Shown one piece after another: positions 1 to 20,119 of a DNA stretch of 42,921 bases. The notes below the pieces were generated by a model. That model was given only the letters and a program-made list of their open reading frames with translations. It ran no database searches and was not told where the DNA came from. Numbering within the stretch: position 1 is the stretch's first letter; the number at the start of each line of letters is the position of its first letter. Origin of the DNA: Tabrizicola sp. Lineage in GTDB: Bacteria > Pseudomonadota > Alphaproteobacteria > Rhodobacterales > Rhodobacteraceae. Both the position numbers and the translations under genes were made by a program. The stretch covers positions 1 to 42,921 of the forward strand of contig JAAURK010000004.1 in NCBI GenBank assembly GCA_012032275.1. The letters are read 5' to 3'.

Positions 1-849
1 AGCCCGTGCCGAAGCGCTTGCCAAGGCGGCCTCTGTCATCCCGCGTCCGCCGCTTGCGAACACTCCGATCCTCGAGGATCAGTTCCTGCAGACCCGGTGG
101 GAATATGCCCTGCCCTTCGAAACCGAACCCCAGATTGTTGGTGGAGAAACCTTCCCCGTCGTGACATCCGTCGATACCGAGGCGCTCGTCGGCATCGAGG
201 AAGATGCCTGGATCGAGCCCGGTGTGGTCATTTATGCGGTCAACGGCGAATGGGTTTCCGACATGGCGGCGATCGAGCGGTTTATCCGGCTGTCGACGAT
301 CCCGGATGCGCAGGGGAAGGTGACGACCAGCGTCCGGATCCGCCCGTCGAACGAAAGCGAGTTCCAGCACGTCACGCTCGTGGCGCCGACGACCCGCTGG
401 GTCGAGCTGAAGAACGGCGTGGTCCTTCGGACGGAATCCGTGGACGGCAAATGGCGCACGACTGTCGACGCGATCACCTATTCGGATGAGAACGGCCTGC
501 AGCCCGGAGACGTGATCCTGTCCGAGAAGAACCTGGGCAAATCGATCGACGTATCGGAAAGCGTCGAGATCATTGTCGATCTGCTTGCGTTCAAGGAGAT
601 TGACGAGGCCAGCTTCACGGTTTCGCGGAACGGCGACGAGATCACGGCAAGGATGCCTCTCGCGCGCGATGATCTATGGTGGGGGTCGGGGAAGCCTTCG
701 AAGTCAGGATATGCCGGTTCAAGTCCACTCCCGGATGCGCTGCGGTCGTCTTACCGGGCGGACCCATGGTGACAAAACCTACTGAAAACGGAAAGTCGAA
801 GAACACGATGTCAAGAATGTCAACGAAGTTCACTCAGGCAGGAAACTGA
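1..849 (+). CDS. Tandem PDZ-like exported protein, 5' partial, probable frameshift
   Basis: The frame of the 161-772 ORF is open back to base 2, so the start lies outside the window. Two PDZ-like units are visible: one around 'PGVVIYAVNGEWVSD' and one around 'GLQPGDVILSE', each followed by a strand-rich tail. PDZ units usually bind peptide ends in periplasmic proteases or scaffolds; no protease domain is seen in this part. The ORF ends at 772, but one extra base in the G5 run at 681-685 would continue it as 'GVGEAFEVRICRFKSTPGC' and on to a TGA at 847-849, one base before the next ATG. That fits an operon and the -1 homopolymer errors seen elsewhere. The PDZ reading is moderate; the extended C-terminus is inferred. 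Confidence 0.6.
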
Positions 850-850
850 T

Positions 851-2421
851 ATGCGTTATCAGAAACTGACGACGCTTGCTGTCGCCTCATGTGTGTTTGC
901 CGGTGCGGCCGTCGCCGCGTTTGCGCAGGATGTCACGCTGACGACGATTGACGGAACCTATTCGCTTGTGGGCGAGCTGACCGACTTCAACGACAAGACG
1001 GTCACGATCCGCACAAGCGTGGGGACGATGTCGGTGGCGCGCGACTCCGTGACATGCGCCGGGGCGGCCTGTCCGGAAGGGATGGCCCCGCTGCCCAGAT
1101 CGTGATCGCCGGCGACCGGACGATGAGCCTCGGCATGGTCCCTGATCTGATGCGCGCATTCTCATCGACTTTTTCGGCCGAGACCCGGACGGTCAAGACC
1201 GTCGACAATGGCCTCATGGTCGAGCTTTCGGGCGGCAGCCTGCCTGACCAGGCCTCTTTCAAGATCGGCCCGTCGACCTCTGCCGATGGGATCGCGACCT
1301 TGCTGGATGGCGGGGCCGAAGTTGCACTGTCCGACAGGCGCGCCCTGACGCGCGAGGTCCGCGCGGCGGGTGAGCTCGACCTTGGCGACCTCCAGAGCCG
1401 GACGCAGGAACAGATCATCGCGCTTGACGGGCTGGTCTTCGTGACCCATCCGCGCAACCCGATCCGCGCGGTTTCGCAAGGCGATGCCGCGGTGATCTTT
1501 GCCGGGCTGATCACGAACTGGTCGGAGGTCGGTGGCAGCAACGCTCCGATCAATCTTTACGTCAGCACGGCGGACGGCGGCGCGACGGAGATGTTCCAGG
1601 CGCTGGTGATGCGCCCCGCCGGGTTGACGATCCAGCAGAATGCCAAGGTGCTCGGCTCTGATCGGCTGGTTGCCGAGGCGGTTGCGGCCGACCCCAACGG
1701 GATTGGGTACACGCGGTTTTCCGGTACCGGCGCGGCACGTCCGCTCGCCATCCGCGGCGACTGCGGCATCCAGACCCAGCCCAGCGATTTCGCCATCAAG
1801 ACGGAAGAATATCCGCTGACGCGTCTGCTTTACATGTATCTGACGAACAAGGACATCTCGCCGATCACCAATCAGCTGATCACCTTCCTTGGAACGGATC
1901 TGGCGCAGGCCACGGTCACCTCCTCGGGCTTTATCGACCAGTCGATATCCTCGGCATCGATCGATCAGCAGGGCTTGCGGCTTGCGTCGGCAATGATGAT
2001 GGCGAGCGATGCCGATGCGCAGCGCGAGCTGCGGGAAATGATGGATTCGCTGCTTTCCGCAGAGCGGCTTTCCGCGACGTTCCGCTACCAGACCGGCACG
2101 CCCGATCTGAATGCCCGTGCACAGGCCGATCTTGACCGGCTTGCCGCGGCCCTGTCGTCGGGTCGGTTCGAGGGCAAGGAGGTTCTTTTCCTCGGCTTTA
2201 CTGATTCCATCGGCGATGCAGAACTGAACCGGCAGCTGTCGCAGCAGCGCGCAGAGGAAGTGATCGAAATACTGGTCACCGCTTACCCCGATCTCGCCAA
2301 CAAGGTCCGGCTGACCGCGGTCGGCTACGGCGAGCTGTCCCCGCTTGCCTGCAACGAGCTTGACGGAGGCCGGGCGATCAATCGGCGCATCGAAGTGTGG
2401 GTGCGCGATTATGTCCGCTGA
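851..2421 (+). CDS. PstS-like binding domain fused to OmpA peptidoglycan-binding domain (frameshifted)
   Basis: The product starts with a signal peptide (ending near 'AAFAQD'), followed by a short beta region containing a Cys pair. A phosphate-binding-protein-like domain comes next ('FVTHPRNPIRAVSQGDAAVI', 'NLYVSTADGGATEMFQ'). The C-terminus is an OmpA/MotB-type domain ('LGFTDSIGDAELNRQLSQQRA'), which normally grips peptidoglycan. The track shows two ORFs, 851-1105 and 1054-2421, because a base is missing from the C-run at 1086-1089; with one more C the text reads 'CPEGMAPAAQIVIAGD'. The corrected length is about 523 residues. It begins right after the probable stop of the PDZ gene. The ligand cannot be read from the sequence; the lack of a permease argues for sensing or scaffolding rather than transport. 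Confidence 0.8.
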
Positions 2422-2523
2422 TCGGGTGATCTTTCTTTCTGGGCTTGGGCCAAGAAACGCCAAGACGGCTATCAAAATGTCAATCAGTCGACAGGCAACT
2501 GTCCTCTTTGTGGATAAGTCTTC

Positions 2524-3546
2524 ATGAGAATGTTGGGTGCAGTTTTCGCGTCGCTCCTGATTGCCGTTCCCTTTTCGGGAGTCGCTCAGGAAAGGTGTGA
2601 CTCCGGTGAAAGAGAGCTGAAGTTCAGCCTTGTGACAGCGGTGAAGGGCCATCCGAAGGGAGAGGCGGCCCTTGCCTTTGCGACGGCGATCAACCGCAAG
2701 TTTCAAGGCAAGTACTGCGTCGTCGTCTACGGCGACAGCGAGCTTTTCAAGGATGACTACACGCTTTTCGAGGCGATGAAACGCGGTGAGGTTACTTTTG
2801 CCGCGCCGTCAGTGGATGTTCTGAACAAGTTCACCCCTAAGTCGACGCTGTTCAGTCTGCCATTCCTTTTCGACAGCCCGTTGCATGCGCTGGCGTTTAC
2901 GGATTCCGACGTGGCGCAGTCTATCCTTGCCGACTTCGCTGATGACGGTTTCCACGCCTTCGGGTTCTGGAGCGGCGGGATGCGACAGATGTCGGCCACC
3001 GTTCCGATCCGGAGCGTCAGGGATGCCGAGGGTCTGACCTTCCGTGTCTCCTCGGATTCTCCGGTCACCGCGGCGGTTTACGAGGCGATGGGGGTCAAGA
3101 CGATCGAAATGCCCTTTGCCGAGGTGTATGACGCGCTCGCTTCGGGGAAGGTGCAGGGGCAGGAAAACACCTGGTCCAACATCGACACGCGCGGGTTTTA
3201 CAAGGTGCAGGCCGCTGTCACCGAGACCAACCACAACTATCTCGGCTATGTCACCCTCACGACGACGGCCTTTCTGGACAGCCTCCCGGAAGCCGAGCGC
3301 AAGGTTTTCGTCGATACGATGCGGCTGGTTTCGCACGAACGCAATGGTTTCGCCTTCGAGTTGAACCAGCTCAGCCGTCAGGCTATCATTGAGGATGGCG
3401 GTGTCATCATCAGCCTGTCGAAGGAAGAACTCGCCGGTTTCCGCGCGGCGTTCAAGCCGGTTTTCGACCGGTTCAAGGGTCAAATCGGTGCTGAGCTGGT
3501 CGATCAGGCCATCGCGATCAATGCCACAACGAAACCGTTCGAATAA
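2524..3546 (+). CDS. TRAP-type (DctP-like) periplasmic solute-binding protein
   Basis: This 340-residue protein has a signal peptide (cleavage near 'GVAQERC') and the DctP fold signature. Recognisable pieces are 'AFATAINRKFQGKYCVVVYGDSELFKDD', 'FSLPFLFDSPLHALAF', 'GGMRQMSATVPIRSVRDAEGLTFRV' and 'GKVQGQENTWSNI'. DctP proteins normally pass organic acids to DctQ/DctM membrane subunits, but neither is encoded nearby. It lies about 100 bases after the PstS/OmpA gene on the same strand and is probably cotranscribed with it. Cys residues at 'ERCDS' and 'GKYCVV' could form a disulfide. An orphan binding protein like this may serve a sensor instead of a transporter; that part is inference. Confidence 0.85.
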   Translation: MRMLGAVFASLLIAVPFSGVAQERCDSGERELKFSLVTAVKGHPKGEAALAFATAINRKFQGKYCVVVYGDSELFKDDYTLFEAMKRGEVTFAAPSVDVLNKFTPKSTLFSLPFLFDSPLHALAFTDSDVAQSILADFADDGFHAFGFWSGGMRQMSATVPIRSVRDAEGLTFRVSSDSPVTAAVYEAMGVKTIEMPFAEVYDALASGKVQGQENTWSNIDTRGFYKVQAAVTETNHNYLGYVTLTTTAFLDSLPEAERKVFVDTMRLVSHERNGFAFELNQLSRQAIIEDGGVIISLSKEELAGFRAAFKPVFDRFKGQIGAELVDQAIAINATTKPFE

Positions 3547-3714
3547 GCCGACAGCCCCCCAATCCGGCTACTAACCGGCGGGATTGTGGCGCAACAATGA
3601 TCAATCTCTACAAATTGCATGTATCATGCCATTTGGAGACCATAATTCTGGATCACCTCTTTGTCACGAACGGTTGATCTGCCACCGCAACGCACTGCTC
3701 AAAGGAGTCCATTG

Positions 3715-4830
3715 ATGGCCCGCACCAATCGCATCACGAAGACGCTTCTCGGCCATGCGGCCGTCGCCCTTGGCCTCATGGCAACATCGGCCGGCGCTCA
3801 GGAGCTTTGCTCGGTCTACAGCGTGCAGAAGGGCGACACGCTCAGCGGCATTGCAAGCAGCGCAGGCGTCAAGGGTGGTTTCCAGACCATCTACAACGCC
3901 AACCGCGACACGCTCGCCAGCCCCAATATCATCGAGATCAACCAGAAGATCGTCATCCCCTGCGCGGACGGAACGCTGCCGGGCCAGGCCGCCGCCGCGA
4001 AACCGGTGGAGACCGCAACCGCCGAACCCGCAGCGACCGAAGAGCCGAAGCCCGCAGGCGGCCCGTTGCCCAAGCTGAAGTTCCTGACGGCAAGCGACTA
4101 TGCCCCGTTCACCGATGAAGAGCTTCCGGAAGGCGGCATGTTCACCGAACTCGTCCGCCGCGCAACCGAGCGTGGAGCCCCCGATCTGGAATATTCGGTG
4201 ACCTTCGTGAATGACTGGGGCTCGCATCTGTCCGATCTGCTTCCCTCTGGCGCTTTCGACGGTGGCTTCCCCTGGTTCCTTCCCGATTGCAGCAAGGTCG
4301 ATCTTCTGTCGCCCGCGATGCAACTGCGCTGCAACGACTATGATGCCACGGAGCCGTTCTTCGAAGTGGTGATCGGCTGGTATGCCAAGTCCGGCAGCGA
4401 TCTTCTTACCGCAACCTCTTATGACGCGCTGAAAGGCCTGCGCATCTGCCGCCCCGACGGTTGGTTCACATTCGATCTCGAGGCGCTTGAACTGGTCGAG
4501 CCGAAGATCCCGCTTCTTCTGCGCGCCCCAAGCCAGGTGGACTGCTGGCGCGCGCTGCAGAACGACGAAGTCGACATTGTGACCTTTGACGCCTTGCCGG
4601 CAGAGGATGACATCGTATCGCTGAACATCAGCGACGAAGTGAAGGAAATCACTGGACTGTCGTCGGTGGTGACCGCCCATGTCTTCGTGCCGAAAGGCAA
4701 CCCGAATGGCCCGGCCTACATCGCACTTCTGAACGAGGGGCTGAAAGAAATGCGCGACGATGGAAGCTGGTTCTCGATCGTGTCGCAGCGGCTGCGCGAA
4801 CATGAGGAAAAGCAGGCCGCGGGCAACTGA
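3715..4830 (+). CDS. LysM domain fused to family-3 solute-binding domain
   Basis: The start is set at the ATG at 3715, which follows AAAGGAG by seven bases; the track ORF begins at an upstream TTG without support. The protein has 371 residues: a signal peptide ending near 'SAGAQE', a LysM module at about 32-82 ('YSVQKGDTLSGIASSAGV ... IIEINQKIVIPC'), a Pro/Ala/Glu-rich linker, and a bacterial SBP_3-like domain ('LKFLTASDYAPFTDEELPEGGMFTELVRRA'). LysM binds peptidoglycan glycan, so the binding domain should be tethered to the wall. No amino-acid permease or ATPase is adjacent. It is the last gene of the envelope cluster and is followed by a strong terminator. Confidence 0.85.
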   Translation: MARTNRITKTLLGHAAVALGLMATSAGAQELCSVYSVQKGDTLSGIASSAGVKGGFQTIYNANRDTLASPNIIEINQKIVIPCADGTLPGQAAAAKPVETATAEPAATEEPKPAGGPLPKLKFLTASDYAPFTDEELPEGGMFTELVRRATERGAPDLEYSVTFVNDWGSHLSDLLPSGAFDGGFPWFLPDCSKVDLLSPAMQLRCNDYDATEPFFEVVIGWYAKSGSDLLTATSYDALKGLRICRPDGWFTFDLEALELVEPKIPLLLRAPSQVDCWRALQNDEVDIVTFDALPAEDDIVSLNISDEVKEITGLSSVVTAHVFVPKGNPNGPAYIALLNEGLKEMRDDGSWFSIVSQRLREHEEKQAAGN

Positions 4831-4853: not shown

Positions 4854-4884
4854 GGGGCGGGCCTTCGGTCCGCCCCTTCTTGTT
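4854..4884 (+). terminator. Rho-independent terminator after envelope cluster
   Basis: A ten-base stem GGGGCGGGCC / GGTCCGCCCC (one G-T pair) closes a TTC loop and is followed by TTCTTGTT. It sits between the LysM/SBP_3 stop and the convergent end of hutU, so it probably ends rightward transcription and may also work leftward. Confidence 0.75.
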
Positions 4885-12595: not shown

Positions 12596-12626
12596 TTTGT
12601 CCAACTACTTTGCTGGGTTGGACAAT
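12596..12626. other. Probable integrase arm-type sites, left end
   Basis: TTTGTCCAAC (12596-12605) and GTTGGACAAT (12617-12626) are inverted copies of one motif, next to attL and overlapping the 3' end of the integrase gene. The same motif occurs twice near attR, which suggests arm-site binding by the integrase. The core-plus-arm layout is known for lambda-type integrases; the assignment here is inference. Confidence 0.6.
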
Positions 12627-13648
12627 TTCCTGACTTTTTCGAATCCGCTGTCGGCCAATCGCGCCCGGTTTGCCTTGCGCGTATAGGTGCGCGCCTGTGT
12701 CGTATCGGCATGGGCAAGGTATGACGCGATCTCCCACTCCGACGCACCAGCATCTGCAAGCCGCGTGGCACCAGCCTTCCGCAGGCCGTGGATTGACCCA
12801 GGCACACCGGCCTCTTTGCACCGCTTCCTGAACCAGTTGCCGAATGAGGTGACCTTGTAAGGCAACAGCGAGTTCTCTCGCGTAATGAACAGGTTTTGGT
12901 CTGGCGGCAGGCGTGCGATTTCCTCCGCCAGTTCAGGCAGAACTGGCAAATCTGCCGCCACTGACGTCTTGCCCCGCGCATAGGCGATCCGCATTTGGCC
13001 GTCACGGATCGAGATCATGTGCCGACCCGCACCGCAAAGGTCCTGACGCGCCATCCCGGTGTTCAAGGCCACCAGCAGTGCCATTCGCGCTTTGGTCCCC
13101 GCGCCGTGCCGTTCGAGAAACATGGCAACCTCGGCTTCAGTCCAAGTGTGATATCCGGTGCTGTTTTCCTTCGATCGCTCAGCAGACTTAGCCGGGTTGG
13201 TCCCGACATAGTCCAACTTCTGCGCAGCGAAGTTGTAAAGCATCGACATGTTCTTCTTCACGCCATTCGCCGCACTTGGCCCGGCCTTTCTCGACATCAG
13301 CTTTTCGACATGGATGACCTTCATCCGTGCAAACGGCAGGTCACCAGCCTGTTCCCTGATCCAGTCGAACTGATACCGCAGTGTGGACCGTCGGATCGCG
13401 GAAGAGGACTTGTAACGCAGGCTGCCTAGGAACTGTTCGATCAACCAGCCAATCGTCACGGTCGCGGCCCGCGATTTCCGCAAGCGCACACGCTCAATGG
13501 CGGCCTCATGCGCCGCAATAAACTCAGTCGAGCCGTAAGGGCCGGGAAGGTTGGTCCGAAAATCACCCTTCTCGAAACGCCAGTAGATACGCCCCTTGAC
13601 GATGTTCTTGCGTACATACGGATAGGTATTGTTGGTCCGACGGCTCAT
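12605..13648 (-). CDS. Tyrosine site-specific integrase of the island
   Basis: This 347-residue tyrosine recombinase has an N-terminal core-binding region and a catalytic domain. Catalytic candidates are Arg201 ('NTGMARQDLC'), His287-x-x-Arg290 ('SIHGLRKAGATRLAD'), His313 ('YLAHADTTQ') and Tyr322 ('RTYTRKA'). It is transcribed towards tRNA-Glu, stops 52 bases from attL, and should catalyse both integration and excision. Its start overlaps the upstream small gene by 4 bases (ATGA), so it is translationally coupled to it. The reading frame is intact, so the element may still be able to excise. Confidence 0.94.
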   Translation of the reverse strand: MSRRTNNTYPYVRKNIVKGRIYWRFEKGDFRTNLPGPYGSTEFIAAHEAAIERVRLRKSRAATVTIGWLIEQFLGSLRYKSSSAIRRSTLRYQFDWIREQAGDLPFARMKVIHVEKLMSRKAGPSAANGVKKNMSMLYNFAAQKLDYVGTNPAKSAERSKENSTGYHTWTEAEVAMFLERHGAGTKARMALLVALNTGMARQDLCGAGRHMISIRDGQMRIAYARGKTSVAADLPVLPELAEEIARLPPDQNLFITRENSLLPYKVTSFGNWFRKRCKEAGVPGSIHGLRKAGATRLADAGASEWEIASYLAHADTTQARTYTRKANRARLADSGFEKVRKLSNPAK

Positions 13649-13830
13649 CGCAACAACCGGTCGCAGGGGTTACTTGAAGCCCGAGGCTCTTCACCTTCAG
13701 GGAAGATCACGACCTTCCCCTCGCGGTGGTCCACCTCGACCCGACCGATCTTCAGCCCGGCTGCCATCGCGGCCGCAATACTGCGTGTAACTTCGGTCTT
13801 GGTGACAATGGCGACGCGGTTGGCCATCAT
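13645..13830 (-). CDS. Small protein upstream of integrase
   Basis: This 61-residue protein ('MMANRVAIVTKTEVTRSIAAAMAAGLKIGRVEVDH...') is unrecognised, with a short N-terminal strand-helix pattern and an acidic/basic tail. It overlaps the preceding gene by 4 bases and the integrase start by 4, a compact three-gene unit. That arrangement supports a real gene and a role tied to recombination, but none can be read from the sequence. Confidence 0.65.
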   Translation of the reverse strand: MMANRVAIVTKTEVTRSIAAAMAAGLKIGRVEVDHREGKVVIFPEGEEPRASSNPCDRLLR

Positions 13831-14030
13831 CGACCGCTACGCTTGGCCTCGGCCGTCAGCAAGGTTTCAAGATGCGCCGGAGAGAGAACCATTGCGCGAC
13901 CGATTGAGTAGAAGCACCCCATTTCACGCGCTTTGGTGCGCAAGGCGCGTGACGACAGGCGCATGCCCTTCGACGACAAGAGTTTGACCCATTGTTCGGG
14001 CGTCCGCCCTTCGTTCAGATGCTCCAGCAC
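13827..14030 (-). CDS. Small putative DNA-binding/excisionase-like protein
   Basis: The track starts this at 14084, but GTG 14030 has AAGGAG six bases upstream and gives a 67-residue protein 'MLEHLNEGRTPEQWVKLLSSKGMRLSSRALRTKAREMGCFYSIGRAMVLSPAHLETLLTAE'. The helix-rich, basic sequence and its place as the first gene of the integrase operon resemble recombination directionality factors or small HTH proteins. It overlaps the next gene by 4 bases. A function in excision is inferred from context only. Confidence 0.65.
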   Translation of the reverse strand: MLEHLNEGRTPEQWVKLLSSKGMRLSSRALRTKAREMGCFYSIGRAMVLSPAHLETLLTAEAKRSGR

Positions 14031-14084
14031 GTTTTGCTCCTTGTCGTTGCTAACGCAGCGAAGCACAGCACGGGACACTTGCAC

Positions 14085-14142
14085 AAGATTGAGAGCGGAA
14101 TTATACTTCTAAGAGCACGAATATGCTTTTTTGGGGGGTAAT
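14085..14142. promoter_or_regulatory. Divergent promoter between integrase operon and XRE regulator
   Basis: This short A/T-rich gap separates divergent units. On the minus strand there is a perfect -10 box TATAAT (14100-14105) facing the integrase operon, with no clear -35. The XRE gene has a strong G-rich ribosome site (GGGGGG, 14133-14138). The regulator plausibly controls both directions. Confidence 0.45.
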
Positions 14143-14700
14143 ATGACGACTTATCAATTCAGAAAGCGGGCAGAAACAGAACGATCTGCTGAAGAAGGCG
14201 AAATGTTCGAAGCGCTTGAATGGGACGAGTTCGAGCGCAGGCTGCCATTGTTCGCGCCGGCTGCCGGTTTACTTCGTACACGGCAACGATTTGTCGCATC
14301 GCAAGCCCACATCGCCAAAATCGCGGATGTTTCACTTCGCGCCTACCAAAGCTATGAGCGCGGCGAGAAGACCGTCCCCGCACCCGTGCTCTGCCGGATC
14401 GCCGCGTTCTTCGAGCTGGACCTCCACGAACTGGTCACCGGGCAACGATCAACGCCTGACCCAGCAACCATTGCAACGCTGACCGACGATGCGATCCGTG
14501 TTGCGGGTCAGGTTTTTGATCAGTTCAAGGCCAGCGACATGAGCGGGAAGGAAGCCCGCCTGATCGCCGCCCAGGTCCTGAAATGGAAACGATCGGGCGA
14601 GGCGGCAGACCGGGATATGATTGTGGCTGCCACGCACATGGTCACAGGTGACAAGTACGTTGTGCAATCTAGGCTCGACCTGGACGAGGAGGACGAATAG
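14143..14700 (+). CDS. XRE-family transcriptional regulator
   Basis: I chose ATG 14143, preceded by GGGGGG, over the TTG at 14131. The product has 185 residues. A Cro/C1-type helix-turn-helix lies near 50-100: 'RQRFVASQAHIAKIADVSLRAYQSYERGEKTVPAPVLCRIAAFFELDLHELVTG'. The C-terminal helical region is unrecognised. It sits between the integrase operon and hsdM and reads the same way as hsdM, 49 bases ahead. Such regulators often control RM or integrase genes of islands; which one is unknown here. Confidence 0.8.
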   Translation: MTTYQFRKRAETERSAEEGEMFEALEWDEFERRLPLFAPAAGLLRTRQRFVASQAHIAKIADVSLRAYQSYERGEKTVPAPVLCRIAAFFELDLHELVTGQRSTPDPATIATLTDDAIRVAGQVFDQFKASDMSGKEARLIAAQVLKWKRSGEAADRDMIVAATHMVTGDKYVVQSRLDLDEEDE

Positions 14701-14749
14701 CCTTCTGGATGAAAATCAATAAGAATCAAATAACAGGACGGCAAAGCTC

Positions 14750-16324
14750 ATGATCACAGGTGCCATCAAGTCCCAGGTCGACCAGATTTGGAATGCCTTC
14801 TGGTCGGGCGGCGTGTCCAACCCGCTTTCGGTGATTGAACAGATCACCTACCTGCTCTTCATCAAGCGCCTCGACGAAATCCACACCCGCGAGGAAGCCA
14901 GGGCCAACACCCTGAAACACCCGATGGAGCGGCGCATTTTCCCAAAGGGCGCCTTCGGGTACAAGGTCAGCGACGATCCGGACGACGAGACGCACGTTGA
15001 TCGGCCCTATGACGATCTGCGTTGGCAGCGGCTGATCAACTTCGAATCGCGCGAGAAGATGAAGCTGGTCGATCAGCATGTCTTCCCGTTCCTACGCAAC
15101 ATGGCCGAAAGGGGCACCTCCTTTGCCACGCATATGAAGGATGCACGGCTGGGCTTTGCCAACGCTGCCCTTCTCGACAAGGTCATGCGGCTGCTCGATG
15201 ACATTCAAATGGATGATCGCGACACCAAGGGCGACGTCTATGAATACATGCTGGGCAAGATCGCCAGCGCGGGCCAGAATGGCCAGTTCCGCACGCCGCG
15301 CCACATCATCAACCTGATGGTGCATCTGATGGCCCCCAAGCCCAGCGATGTGATCTGCGATCCGGCGGCGGGCACCTGCGGTTTCCTGGTCGCCGCCGGG
15401 GAGTACCTGCGCGACACCCACCCCGAGATGCTACGCAACCCCGAACAGCGCGACTATTTCCACAACCGCATGTTCCACGCCTTCGACTTTGACAGCACCA
15501 TGCTGCGGATCGGGGCGATGAACATGGTGCTGCACGGGGTTGAAAATGCCGATGTCGCCTATCGCGACAGCCTTGCGCAGGAGCATGGGGCCGATGCGGG
15601 CACCTGCTCGCTGATCCTGGCCAACCCGCCTTTTGCCGGGTCGCTCGACTATGACGCGACGGCGAAAGACCTGCAAAAGATGGTGAAGACCAAAAAGACC
15701 GAGCTTCTGTTCATCGCGCTTTTCCTGCGCCTCTTGCGGACGGGCGGGCGGGCGGCGGTGGTTGTGCCGGACGGGGTGCTGTTCGGGTCGTCCAGCGCGC
15801 ACAAGGACATTCGCAAGATGCTGGTCGAACAGCATAAGCTGGATGCTGTGATCAAGCTGCCCTCGGGCGTGTTCCGGCCCTATGCGGGGGTGTCGACGGC
15901 AATCCTGCTGTTCACCAAGACCGGCGTTGGCGGCACGGGGACTGTCTGGTTCTATGACATGGCCGCCGATGGGCTGAGCCTGGATGACAAGCGCGCCGAT
16001 CTGCTGCCGCCCGAATTGCAGGGACCGACTCCCGCGCGCACACTGACGGCCGAAGAGCACGCAAAGAACAACCTGCCCGACATTCTGGCCCGCTGGGGCG
16101 ATCTGGGGGCAGAGGTTGCGCGGCCCCGCACCGCGCAAAGCTTCATGGTGCCGGTCACCGACGTCATCGCCACCGGCACATGGGACCTGTCGTTGAACCG
16201 CTACAAGCAGGTGGAACAAAAGCAGGTGACCCATGCCGCACCCAAGGACATCATCGCCGAACTGCGTGCGCTGGAGGCCGAGATCGCCGAGGGCCTGGAC
16301 CGGCTGGAGGGGATGCTGGGATGA
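14750..16324 (+). CDS. hsdM: Type I restriction-modification methyltransferase subunit
   Basis: HsdM is the N6-adenine methyltransferase subunit, active with HsdS. The 524-residue protein has the N-terminal HsdM domain ('IKSQVDQIWNAFWSGGVSNPLSVIEQITYLLFIKRLDE'), SAM-binding motif 'DPAAGTCGFLVAAGEYL' near residue 203, catalytic motif 'NPPF' near 290 and 'VVVPDGVLFGSSSAHKDIR'. The second Gly of the usual DPAxGTGGF motif is Cys here ('GTCGF'), which is seen in this family. It overlaps the hsdS start by 4 bases. The gene appears intact, unlike hsdS and hsdR, so any remaining activity is modification at most. Confidence 0.93.
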   Translation: MITGAIKSQVDQIWNAFWSGGVSNPLSVIEQITYLLFIKRLDEIHTREEARANTLKHPMERRIFPKGAFGYKVSDDPDDETHVDRPYDDLRWQRLINFESREKMKLVDQHVFPFLRNMAERGTSFATHMKDARLGFANAALLDKVMRLLDDIQMDDRDTKGDVYEYMLGKIASAGQNGQFRTPRHIINLMVHLMAPKPSDVICDPAAGTCGFLVAAGEYLRDTHPEMLRNPEQRDYFHNRMFHAFDFDSTMLRIGAMNMVLHGVENADVAYRDSLAQEHGADAGTCSLILANPPFAGSLDYDATAKDLQKMVKTKKTELLFIALFLRLLRTGGRAAVVVPDGVLFGSSSAHKDIRKMLVEQHKLDAVIKLPSGVFRPYAGVSTAILLFTKTGVGGTGTVWFYDMAADGLSLDDKRADLLPPELQGPTPARTLTAEEHAKNNLPDILARWGDLGAEVARPRTAQSFMVPVTDVIATGTWDLSLNRYKQVEQKQVTHAAPKDIIAELRALEAEIAEGLDRLEGMLG

Positions 16325-17406
16325 GTTGGCCGGTGGTTGCGCTTGGTGAGGTTGCCGAGATTGAACGCGAAGGCATAGCGGCCGATCTTATCCCGAACGG
16401 CACGGACTATCTCGGGCTGGAGCATATTGAAAGCGGCGGCATCATTCTCGGAAAGGAAACCGTCGCAAACGGCGATCTGGCCAGCACGAAGTTCACGTTT
16501 ACGTCCGACCATCTGCTCTACGGAAAGCTCCGGCCCTACTTGGCCAAGATCGCACTGCCGGAATTCGACGGTGTTTGCAGCACTGACATCTTGCCTATCC
16601 GTCCAGGGCCACGCCTTGATAAGCGTTTTTTGGCCTTTTACCTGCGTCAGTCTTCAATGGTCGATTATGCTGCAAGCAGGGCCACGGGCGCAAACCTGCC
16701 CAGGTTAAGTCCGACGGCACTGTCGGGATTCCCCGTCCCACTCCCCCCCTTAGTGGAGCAGAGGCGGATTGCAGGGATACTGGATCAGGCGGACGCGCTC
16801 CGCCGCCTCCGCACCCGCGCGCTAGATAGGCTGACCACCCTCGGTCAGGCAATCTTTCACGAGATGTTCGGGGACCCCAAAACTGAACCGGATCGCTGGC
16901 AAGCTATTGGATTTGATGAAGCCTGTCGTGACGAAACAGCGAAATCGCCAAAAGTGCAAAAAACGGAATACCAAATCGCTGGAAAAATTCCAGTGATCGA
17001 TCAAGGACAAAAGGAAGTTGCCGGGTACACGGAGAGCGAGAATGTCTGCAAGTCGCAGGGCCCGGTAATAGTGTTCGGGGACCACACTAAGGCAGTGAAG
17101 TACATCGATTTCCCGTTTGCCATAGGGGCAGATGGTGCAAAAGTATTGAAACCATCGAAACTCTATGAGCCGATATTCTTCGCTGCCTTGCTTCGCAACC
17201 TTCCTATTCCCGATTTGGGATACTCAAGGCATATGCGGGAGGTGAAGAAAATGCGCTTCCCTGCGCCCCCGGTTGTGTTGTAAGAAGTGTTTTCAGCTCG
17301 GTTGGCTGCATTGATAGAGCATGGCGTGGTGCTCAGGTCATCAAAGCAGGACTTATCCACCCTCTTCACCTCCCTCCAACACCGCGCGTTCCGGGGGGAG
17401 TTGTGA
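16321..17406 (+). pseudogene. hsdS: Type I RM specificity subunit with internal stop
   Basis: HsdS picks the DNA target. The first recognition domain starts at 'MSWPVVALGEVAEIERE', the central conserved segment is 'PLPPLVEQRRIAGILDQADALRRLRTRALDRLTTLGQAIFHEMFGDP', and a second domain follows ('PVIDQGQKEVAGYT', 'LLRNLPIPDLGYSRHMREVKKMRFPAPP'). TAA at 17281-17283 ends the ORF after 320 codons. The same frame then continues with a typical HsdS tail, 'EVFSSRLAALIEHGVVLRSSKQDLSTLFTSLQHRAFRGEL', to a TGA at 17404. A C-to-T change turning CAA into TAA would explain it. The truncated form loses the last conserved helix, which pairs with HsdM. Confidence 0.88.
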
Positions 17407-17407
17407 C

Positions 17408-18122
17408 ATGCGGGGCGAATTGATTGGTGTTTGGTCCGAGATGTGGCGCGAGGTCTGGTCGAAGCTCGCCAAGCACCCCGACGCGCCAAATGACCTGTTC
17501 TGCGAGTTGTTCCGAGAGTTGAACACCGCCCGCAATGCCCCGCTCGACCCTGCCACGACACTTGCCGACATCGTCGACAATGCCAACCAGTCCCGCGCCG
17601 CGTTCCGCAAGACCAAGGCGTCTGACCTGCAAGGGGAGCTGGCGTTGGTCAGCTTTCTTGAACGGGCGCATGAGACCATCGAAGATTTCAATCCGGGCGA
17701 TCTGACCAACCGGTATTTCGTTCTGGTTCAGGCATTCCTTGAAAAGTACAGCCTGCGCTACGACCTCCGCCGCCCGTTCAGCCTGCACCCGACATTGCCG
17801 GGCGTCTTCGCGCGCCTGATGCGCGACCTTCATGCCGTTACAGCACAGGATGCGATCCTCGCCGGGCTGATGCGCGATTTCGATGAAACGGTCCGCGACC
17901 TGAAAGGCAATCAGTCCGAGCAGAAGGTTCGGCAGTGTATCGCGGCGCAGTTCAACCTGATGGAGGCGCTGCTGCGCCATCATCCGGATGTGATTGCGCA
18001 CAATGGGGCGGGCGGACAGCAGGCCAACACCTTTGGCGCGATGTGCGACCGCACAATCGTCTGGCCCCATCAGGCAATGAAAGAGTCCGCACAACGCCTG
18101 TACAAATTCGCGTCGGACTATC
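17408..18122 (+). pseudogene. RM-linked accessory protein, 3' truncated by IS fragment
   Basis: ATG 17408 follows the hsdS TGA directly and has GGGGAG upstream. The protein is mostly helical ('MRGELIGVWSEMWREVWSKLAKHPDAPNDLFCELFRELN ... LPGVFARLMRDLHAVTAQDAILAGLMRDFDETVRDLKG'), with no motif that I can name securely. Native sequence stops near 'RLYKFASDYP'; after about 18120 the ORF runs antisense into a transposase fragment to 18340 and becomes Arg/Ser-rich nonsense. Position between hsdS and hsdR suggests an accessory or abortive-infection-like role, but that is inference. Confidence 0.65.
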
Positions 18123-18383
18123 CGGACAGGGACGTGTCGGCGATCAGGGCCAGGCATTCCCGCGTGCAGTCGTCCACTACGGTCAACACGCGGAAGCGGC
18201 GGCCATCGGTCAGCTGGTCGGACACGAAGTCGAGCGACCAACGCTGGTTCGGCATCAGCGGCAGCGCCATCGGGGCTCGCGTCCCTATCGCCCGTTTGCG
18301 GCCACCGCGGCGGCGGACATGCCGCCGCTCCTCGCGGTAGATGCGGAACAGGCGCTTGTGGTTCACCTCATGGCTTCCTCGTG
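18120..18383 (-). mobile_element. Fragment of IS3-family transposase (OrfB)
   Basis: The minus strand encodes 'HEVNHKRLFRIYREERRHVRRRGGRKRAIGTRAPMALPLMPNQRWSLDFVSDQLTDGRRFRVLTVVDDCTRECLALIADTSLSG'. This is the middle of an IS3-family (IS407/IS2-like) DDE transposase, including the first two catalytic Asp positions. Both ends of the transposase are missing, and no terminal repeats were seen. The left edge cuts the accessory gene and the right edge meets the middle of hsdR, so an IS-linked deletion removed the DNA between them. Confidence 0.85.
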
Positions 18384-20119
18384 CCACCCCGGGCGATATC
18401 CGTGCCGTTGAAGTTCCAGCGGGACGGAATTGACTACGACAGCCTTTCGGAGGAGGAAAAGGCGGAATGGGATGCGCTGGAGTGGGATGAAGATGGCACG
18501 ATCCCGGACCGGGTCGAGGCGGCTGACCTGAACAAGTGGCTTTTCAACAAGGATACCGTGGACAAGGTTCTGGAGCATCTGATGACCAACGGGATCAAGG
18601 TTGCTGGGGGCGACCGTCTGGGCAAGACGATCATCTTCGCCAAGAGCAGCCGCCACGCCCAGTTCATCACCGAACGCTTCGACGCGAACTATCCCCACAT
18701 GAAGGGTGAATTTGCCCGCCTGATCGACTACAGCATACCGTATGCACAAACACTGATCGATGATTTTTCAGAGGCCGCGAAGTCTCCGCATATCGCCGTG
18801 TCCGTGGACATGCTCGACACCGGCATCGACGTGCCGGAAGTCGTGAATCTGGTGTTCTTCAAGATCGTTCGGTCAAAGACGAAGTTCTGGCAGATGATCG
18901 GACGCGGCACCCGCACCTGCAAGGATCTGTTTGGTCCCGGTGAGGACAAAGACGAATTCCTAGTTTTCGATTTCTGCCAGAACCTGGAGTTCTTCAACGA
19001 AAACCCAACGGTCAACGACGCTCCAGCCGCAAGGCCAATCGGTGAACGGCTCTTTGCGACACGTGTTGACCTGATCGGCATCCTTCAGGACGTCGGGAGG
19101 CACGAAGGGCTTCTTGCCTCGGTTAAGGCACGATTGCAGGACGAAGTTGCAGGCATGAACCTCGAAAACTTTGTAATTCGCCACTATCGTCGATCCGTCG
19201 AAAAGTTTCAGGCACCAGAGAGCTGGAAAAGCCTCGATCTCGATGCCCGGCTGATTCTTTCCGACGAGGTCGCGGGGCTTCCGAGTGCCTTCGACGACGG
19301 CGCGCTTGCGGCAAAGCAGTTCGACCTCCTGGTCCTGAGCGCCCAGCTCTTTCTGCTGCGCGGTGATGCGGCTTTTGCCCAGCTCCAAAGGCGTCTTGTC
19401 GCATTTGCGTCAGCGCTCGAAAGCCTGTCGAATGTGCCGACGGTCGCCCGAGAGATGCCACTTATCCTTGACATGCAGACCGAGGATTTCTGGCACGACT
19501 TGACGGTCGACGGACTGGAAGACATCAGGAGGCGGCTGCGCGGACTGGCTGACCTGATTGAGCCGAGGCACCGCAAATCGTCATCACCAATTTCGAAGAT
19601 GCACTTGGGCCAACAGCGCCCGTTGATCTCCCCGAAATCGGGTCTGGCGTGGACAAAGCGCGGTTCAAGCTCAAAGCGCGCCGCTTTGTTGCCGAACACA
19701 AAGATCACATTGCCCTCTTAAAACTCCGGCGAGGCGAGGCTCTGACAACGACCGACCTTGCCGAACTGGAACGCATGATGATCGCAACAGGTTTCGCCGA
19801 TGCAAATGTCCTGACGGAGGTAAAGGCAGAACTCGGTCTAGGCACCTTCCTCAGGTCACTGACTGGCTTCGGCCGGGCTGCCGCAAAGGAACATTTTGGC
19901 AGCTTCGTCGCCGAAAACCACATGAGCGCAAGTCAAAACACATTTCTAGAGATGGTCATCGACGCGCTTTGCGAGAACGGGATGATCGACCCTGGCTTGT
20001 TCTACGAAAGCCCCTTCACCGATCTCGATAAAATGGGCATCGCGGGGCTTTTCGGACCGGAGCAAACGGCTGAAATTATCCAGATCGTGGAAAAGGTAAA
20101 CCATTCAGCAGCGGCATAA
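18384..20119 (+). pseudogene. hsdR: C-terminal remnant of type I RM restriction subunit
   Basis: Homology starts abruptly at 'PPRAISVPLKFQRDGIDYDSLSEEEKAEWDALEWDEDG', the middle of an EcoEI-type HsdR. It continues through helicase-domain-2 motifs 'GKTIIFAKSSRHAQFI', 'SVDMLDTGIDVPEVVNLVFFKIVRSKTKFWQMIGRGTR' and the C-terminal assembly domain. The N-terminal nuclease domain and the ATP-binding DEAD-box half, roughly 430 residues, are absent and replaced by the IS fragment. A base is also missing at the AAA run 19575-19577: 'RHRK-IVITNFEDALGP' is expected, joining the 19649-20119 ORF. The stump cannot cut DNA, with or without that frameshift. Confidence 0.9.

Follow-up and report, generated by a model that had tools for sequence, protein, structure and literature searches.

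The gene cluster that opens the analysed window (the whole stretch of 42,921 nucleotides from a Tabrizicola sp.) probably forms the periplasmic input to a pathway run by a membrane Ser/Thr kinase, with binding proteins anchored to the cell wall that would act on the kinase by way of its PDZ ectodomain. We base this proposed control on gene linkage, topology and precedent. An initial annotation of the same DNA had suggested wall-tethered sensing or scaffolding, and perhaps an undescribed periplasmic system. Wall-tethered sensing is the best-supported reading, ahead of transport; the periplasmic system is better described as transmembrane phosphorylation signalling whose periplasmic partners are exchangeable.

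Organisation of the cluster

Base 1 of contig C173 is the first base of the window; the draft genome consists of 391 contigs and is 85.8% complete. The open reading frames confirm four co-directional genes on the forward strand, running to a hairpin at positions 4854-4876 (forward strand) directly after the last of them. With 10 pairs, 9 of them G-C, and a T-rich tail, this hairpin resembles an intrinsic terminator closing the cluster. Terminator-like hairpins in the whole scan were not rarer than chance; this one was by far the strongest, in keeping with the single strong terminator described initially. On the 3' side follow hutU/hutH on the opposite strand; on the 5' side of the kinase, located on contig C333 (see below), lies an SDR gene, likewise on the opposite strand. 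These adjacent genes include no transporter permease or ATPase, as the initial annotation had it.

Further along the window, positions 12605-19721 look like an inserted island: a phage-type integrase (12605-13648, minus strand) is followed by the type I restriction-modification genes hsdM (14750-16324) and hsdS (16321-17283).

Three binding proteins with signal peptides

Signal peptides are recognisable from sequence on all three binding proteins. The first, PstS-OmpA, had been described as a PstS-like domain fused to OmpA. Both domains are present in its main part (1054-2421, forward strand): a PstS-like binding fold (Pfam PBP_like_2, E 2.5e-22) and an OmpA peptidoglycan-binding domain (E 1.5e-11). 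A frameshift between roughly 1,080 and 1,100, however, splits the gene. Its true start lies near 851: the frame 851-1105 (forward strand), which ends at the frameshift, encodes the signal peptide and a small N-terminal domain, and matches residues 11-85 of the intact homologue at locus L004. The main frame is 62% identical to that homologue, its match to relatives starting near 1066. The relatives are intact; since the assembly is a draft, the frameshift may be either a sequencing error or decay. PstS-OmpA is nearly family-wide: a search of 61 genomes gave about 57 strong matches. It usually lies close to secA and radC (L072-L087, L089 and others), and we found no function for it in the literature searched. 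At L088 (8744-11119, G038:C45), a 791-aa protein joins an SBP_3-like domain to PstS-OmpA, both partner types in one chain.

The second gene encodes a DctP-type binding protein with a signal peptide (2524-3546, forward strand; Pfam DctP, E 2.5e-70), whose nearest solved structure is DctP 9dsy (E 3e-59). With no permease adjoining, its description as an orphan is sustained. It belongs to a DctP subgroup found beside PstS-OmpA in four loci: the window, L139, L073 and, more loosely, L004. It is 52-58% identical to its counterparts in L139 and L073, 33% to that in L004, and at most 25% to the other DctPs of the surveyed loci. The arginine of the GLxFR motif is kept in the window protein and lost in that of L004.

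The third protein (3715-4830, forward strand) consists of a signal peptide, a LysM domain and an SBP_3-type binding fold. Pfam detects LysM alone (E 7e-10), with no SBP_3 model above threshold, yet the predicted structure bears out the fusion: the AlphaFold model (pLDDT 82) has glutamine- and arginine-binding proteins as its top PDB matches in Foldseek (E ~1e-14 to 1e-12). In the family alignment, the protein has conserved cysteines and its SBP_3 domain a conserved core that includes an invariant VNDW.H motif; the profile of the family gives a weak match to GlnH (E 0.0016). A second, stand-alone copy in the same genome (L003 12127-13341, G000:C279) is 66% identical to the window copy. A LysM protein, Dshi_2138, is abundant in the vesicles of D. 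shibae (PMC7901474).

LysM-SBP is far less common than PstS-OmpA and often occurs as tandem pairs without a kinase. We rejected it as a kinase-specific protein, as many such pairs have no kinase within ~8 kb; they may constitute a separate LysM-SBP system. At L159-L174, the kinase-less pairs adjoin a gene of ~200-260 aa.

The PDZ protein is the ectodomain of a kinase

The first frame of the cluster (2-772, forward strand) had been read as a tandem-PDZ protein. The fold itself stands: Pfam gives PDZ below threshold (E 0.001), and an AlphaFold model built with the family alignment is predicted to be a tandem PDZ, nearest to DegP and RseP in a structure search. It is however no separate protein. 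Contig C173 begins inside this frame, whose homologues elsewhere are C-terminal parts of Ser/Thr kinases, most of them ~650-970 residues long; we therefore assign it as the periplasmic ectodomain of such a kinase. A free-standing PDZ protein or HtrA-like protease was rejected on the same grounds, no protease domain being present.

The missing half probably lies on contig C333 (6,085 bases), where a kinase gene (L033:4487-6085) runs off the contig end. It encodes one transmembrane helix and the motifs VVIKECFP, HRDISPDNI and LIDFGAAR, and it ends in an Ala/Glu-rich stretch where the L004 kinase has a coil preceding its PDZ part. The catalytic Lys, HRD and DFG of Hanks-type kinases, within a Pkinase domain, are found in it and in nearly all homologues; in the L004 kinase, Pfam scores the Pkinase domain at E 4e-30. 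That the two contig ends carry one split gene is well supported, because the C333 kinase is the sister of the L004 kinase in the kinase tree (support 100/97) and L004 is likewise the best match to the PDZ part in the window (54-55% identity, against 26-28% to others); as the contigs do not overlap, the join is inferred rather than proven. On the same tree and identities we rejected a second truncated kinase, on contig C120, as the source of the ectodomain, C120 grouping with L141. The window PDZ protein also has a tail absent from L004, and a further kinase paralogue of this genome, on contig C229, is broken. Of the protease or sensor that the initial annotation had surmised upstream, only the sensor materialised, in the form of this kinase.

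Linkage across Rhodobacteraceae

Our first relatives were found by means of LysM-SBP. Since this biases the picture, we ran a further search across 298 genera of the family, using only the kinase ectodomain as query, obtained matches in 26, and fetched and annotated their surroundings with purpose-built profiles. This gave 29 readable loci, with the window and C229 included, L138 and L004 counted once as the same locus, and L150 (a false positive), L124 and L136 (contigs too short) left out.

LysM-SBP or PstS-OmpA lies within ~10 kb of the ectodomain in 22 of the 29 loci. LysM-SBP is present in 12, usually as two copies 3' of the kinase and in the same direction (the pair of L130 being taken from the separate LysM-SBP search); PstS-OmpA is also present in 12, and both types occur in the window and L004. 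The remaining seven (L132, L134, L137, L140, L142, L148 and C229) have neither. Chance would give ~0.05 loci for LysM-SBP and ~0.14 for PstS-OmpA, rough figures because the loci are related to one another and were judged readable only after inspection. Gene order and strand are operon-like, often with only 68-363 bp between kinase and LysM-SBP; PstS-OmpA stands ~8 kb away behind dynamin genes in L141, L143 and L152, and is divergent in L144. The presence of a LysM partner tracks the kinase tree (4 changes, compared with 13.5 for shuffled labels); that of PstS is scattered over it (7 changes, compared with 8.3).

The initial annotation had made its reading depend on the four genes being kept together. 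Taken literally they are not in most genomes, the exact set existing only in the window and L004, yet the modules stay linked: the parts recur in other combinations, with each type of anchored SBP strongly tied to the kinase. The parts of the kinase cluster are thus exchangeable modules. PstS-OmpA and LysM-SBP have a far wider distribution than the kinase and in most cases occur without it, so that the kinase seems to have recruited them.

Most related loci also contain genes for FHA proteins, a PP2C phosphatase and dynamins. On Ruegeria plasmids, annotated records give the order dynamins, kinase with PDZ, FHA, PP2C and two LysM-SBP genes; one Ruegeria example is NZ_CP045385, where FIU92_RS18930 stands with the LysM-SBP genes RS18915 and RS18910. 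FHA and PP2C are absent beside the kinases of the window and L004; a single PP2C homologue turned up in the window genome, on contig C102, near a VgrG gene. A natural control for the link between ectodomain and partners may be provided by the Leisingera plasmid kinases L070, L156 and L157: they have neither the transmembrane helix nor the PDZ part, and genes for FHA, PP2C and dynamins are still beside them, but none for binding proteins. It is suggestive only, as the three are closely related. Beyond Rhodobacteraceae, a class-wide sample returned only weak matches to the ectodomain (E 1e-4), covering ~70 residues in frames of 520-590 aa, as ordinary PDZ proteins would give.

Pairs of dynamin-like GTPases, together with two small unannotated genes (~133 and 250-290 aa, no Pfam match), accompany kinase clusters (L067 247-8615, L069, L155, L142, L143); the larger GTPase weakly matches LeoA/LeoBC models. 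We dismissed a defence system, the PADLOC matches being generic kinase and LeoA-like dynamin models only. By sequence reading, T6SS-type genes exist elsewhere in the window genome: a ClpV-like gene by a different kinase (L036, G000:C269), and VgrG near PP2C and a caspase-like gene (L091, G000:C102).

Proposed mechanism and alternatives

In the proposed pathway, a binding protein would be kept at the wall by its LysM or OmpA module, close enough for the ectodomain to be reached. Its contact with the PDZ domains would alter when it binds or loses its ligand, or when wall damage sets it free, and the kinase would thereby change in dimerisation and activity. FHA proteins and dynamin-like GTPases probably carry the output in related clusters, with PP2C as the reversing enzyme. 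The seven loci with neither partner, the mostly kinase-free occurrence of PstS-OmpA and LysM-SBP, the lack of overlap between C333 and C173 and the PstS-OmpA frameshift weigh against this pathway.

One precedent for such control is the actinobacterial GlnH-GlnX-PknG system (PMC6069109, PMC9769921), where a permease-less protein of the SBP_3 family is likewise encoded with a Ser/Thr kinase and regulates it: GlnH controls PknG through GlnX, and the authors point to other SBP-linked kinases (PMC6069109). Regulation in our case is inferred. There, a lipoprotein is connected by the separate membrane protein GlnX with a soluble, TPR-containing kinase; here, the four-gene locus has no gene for a GlnX-like membrane linker, the kinase has its own transmembrane helix and PDZ part, and the binding proteins carry wall-binding modules. 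A second precedent is the RtkS or TagR input to PpkA in type VI secretion, again with different parts: periplasmic RtkS binds the periplasmic domain of PpkA and stabilises the kinase (PMC6082577).

The folds might instead be structural adaptors without solute recognition, with LysM and OmpA reporting the state or distance of the wall as in a two-piece PASTA kinase. PASTA kinases (PknB, PrkC, Stk1) are also membrane Hanks kinases that sense the wall, often with a PP2C gene near (PMC6213207); the wall-binding modules, unlike the binding-fold family, are common to both partner types, and the L004 DctP is without the GLxFR arginine. The retained arginine of the window DctP and the conserved SBP_3 core with its invariant VNDW.H nevertheless suggest a functional site that has been kept, and we hold this alternative to be unlikely. 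In structure it would also depart from PASTA kinases: wall contact would run via separate LysM and OmpA proteins, the ectodomain is a tandem PDZ, and Pfam finds no PASTA repeats in the kinases of L004, L015 and L017. A place in the T6SS threonine phosphorylation pathway (PpkA, PppA and Fha, with TagQRST or RtkS as inputs; PMC10482370, PMC6082577), the binding proteins acting as periplasmic activators, appears improbable. In its favour, Serratia PpkA is the closest of the solved kinases (E 2e-41, versus 2e-21 for PknB), most clusters, though not those of the window and L004, share the make-up of the kinase-FHA-PP2C trio, periplasmic proteins are the likely input, and the genome does hold the T6SS-type genes mentioned above on other contigs. 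However, a search for ClpV and VgrG homologues found neither in any fetched PDZ-kinase locus, the kinase linked to T6SS genes in this genome is another one, at 27% identity and placed on a very long branch, and the PDZ ectodomain, SBP-fold partners and dynamin-like GTPases set the clusters apart.

Orphan SBPs are common, and LysM-SBP and PstS-OmpA are also found alone; they could be ordinary binding proteins serving transporters encoded elsewhere, their place beside the kinase being meaningless. Against this speak a linkage repeated far above chance and the absence of these proteins beside kinases without the ectodomain. They share their binding folds with the transport proteins PstS, DctP (TRAP) and SBP_3 (ABC), but have no adjacent permease or ATPase, and two of the three carry a fused wall-binding module, which fits tethering better than shuttling; we regard the transport explanation as very improbable. 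Similarly little weight goes to a locus that is decaying in this genome and no longer working, which we rate as highly improbable: the PstS-OmpA frameshift, the broken C229 paralogue, the PDZ tail lacking in L004 and the lack of PP2C and FHA beside the kinase would fit it, while DctP, LysM-SBP and the catalytic part of the kinase are open and well conserved, and indel errors are possible in a fragmented draft.

Significance

Signalling from a binding protein to a kinase is already known, and a 2005 survey reported kinases fused to solute-binding domains; the new part, as far as the literature we searched goes, is the form with PDZ and wall anchors. We found no description of the cluster in open-access literature, which misses many subscription journals, and the surveys of bacterial Ser/Thr kinases that we searched do not mention PDZ.

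What activates most bacterial Ser/Thr kinases is an open question, and the linkage described here names candidates for a whole kinase family. These carry binding clefts and wall anchors, hence are directly testable, and the complete annotated cluster on several Ruegeria and Leisingera plasmids offers workable laboratory systems. The swapping of LysM-SBP_3 and PstS-OmpA points to a modular receptor design, for which we found no description in the literature searched. More tentatively, Rhodobacteraceae might possess a family-wide form of envelope sensing, in which interchangeable receptors, each combining a wall module with a different type of binding fold, plug into one PDZ kinase; with FHA proteins and dynamin-like GTPases driven in this way, membrane remodelling could come under the control of nutrients or of the state of the wall.
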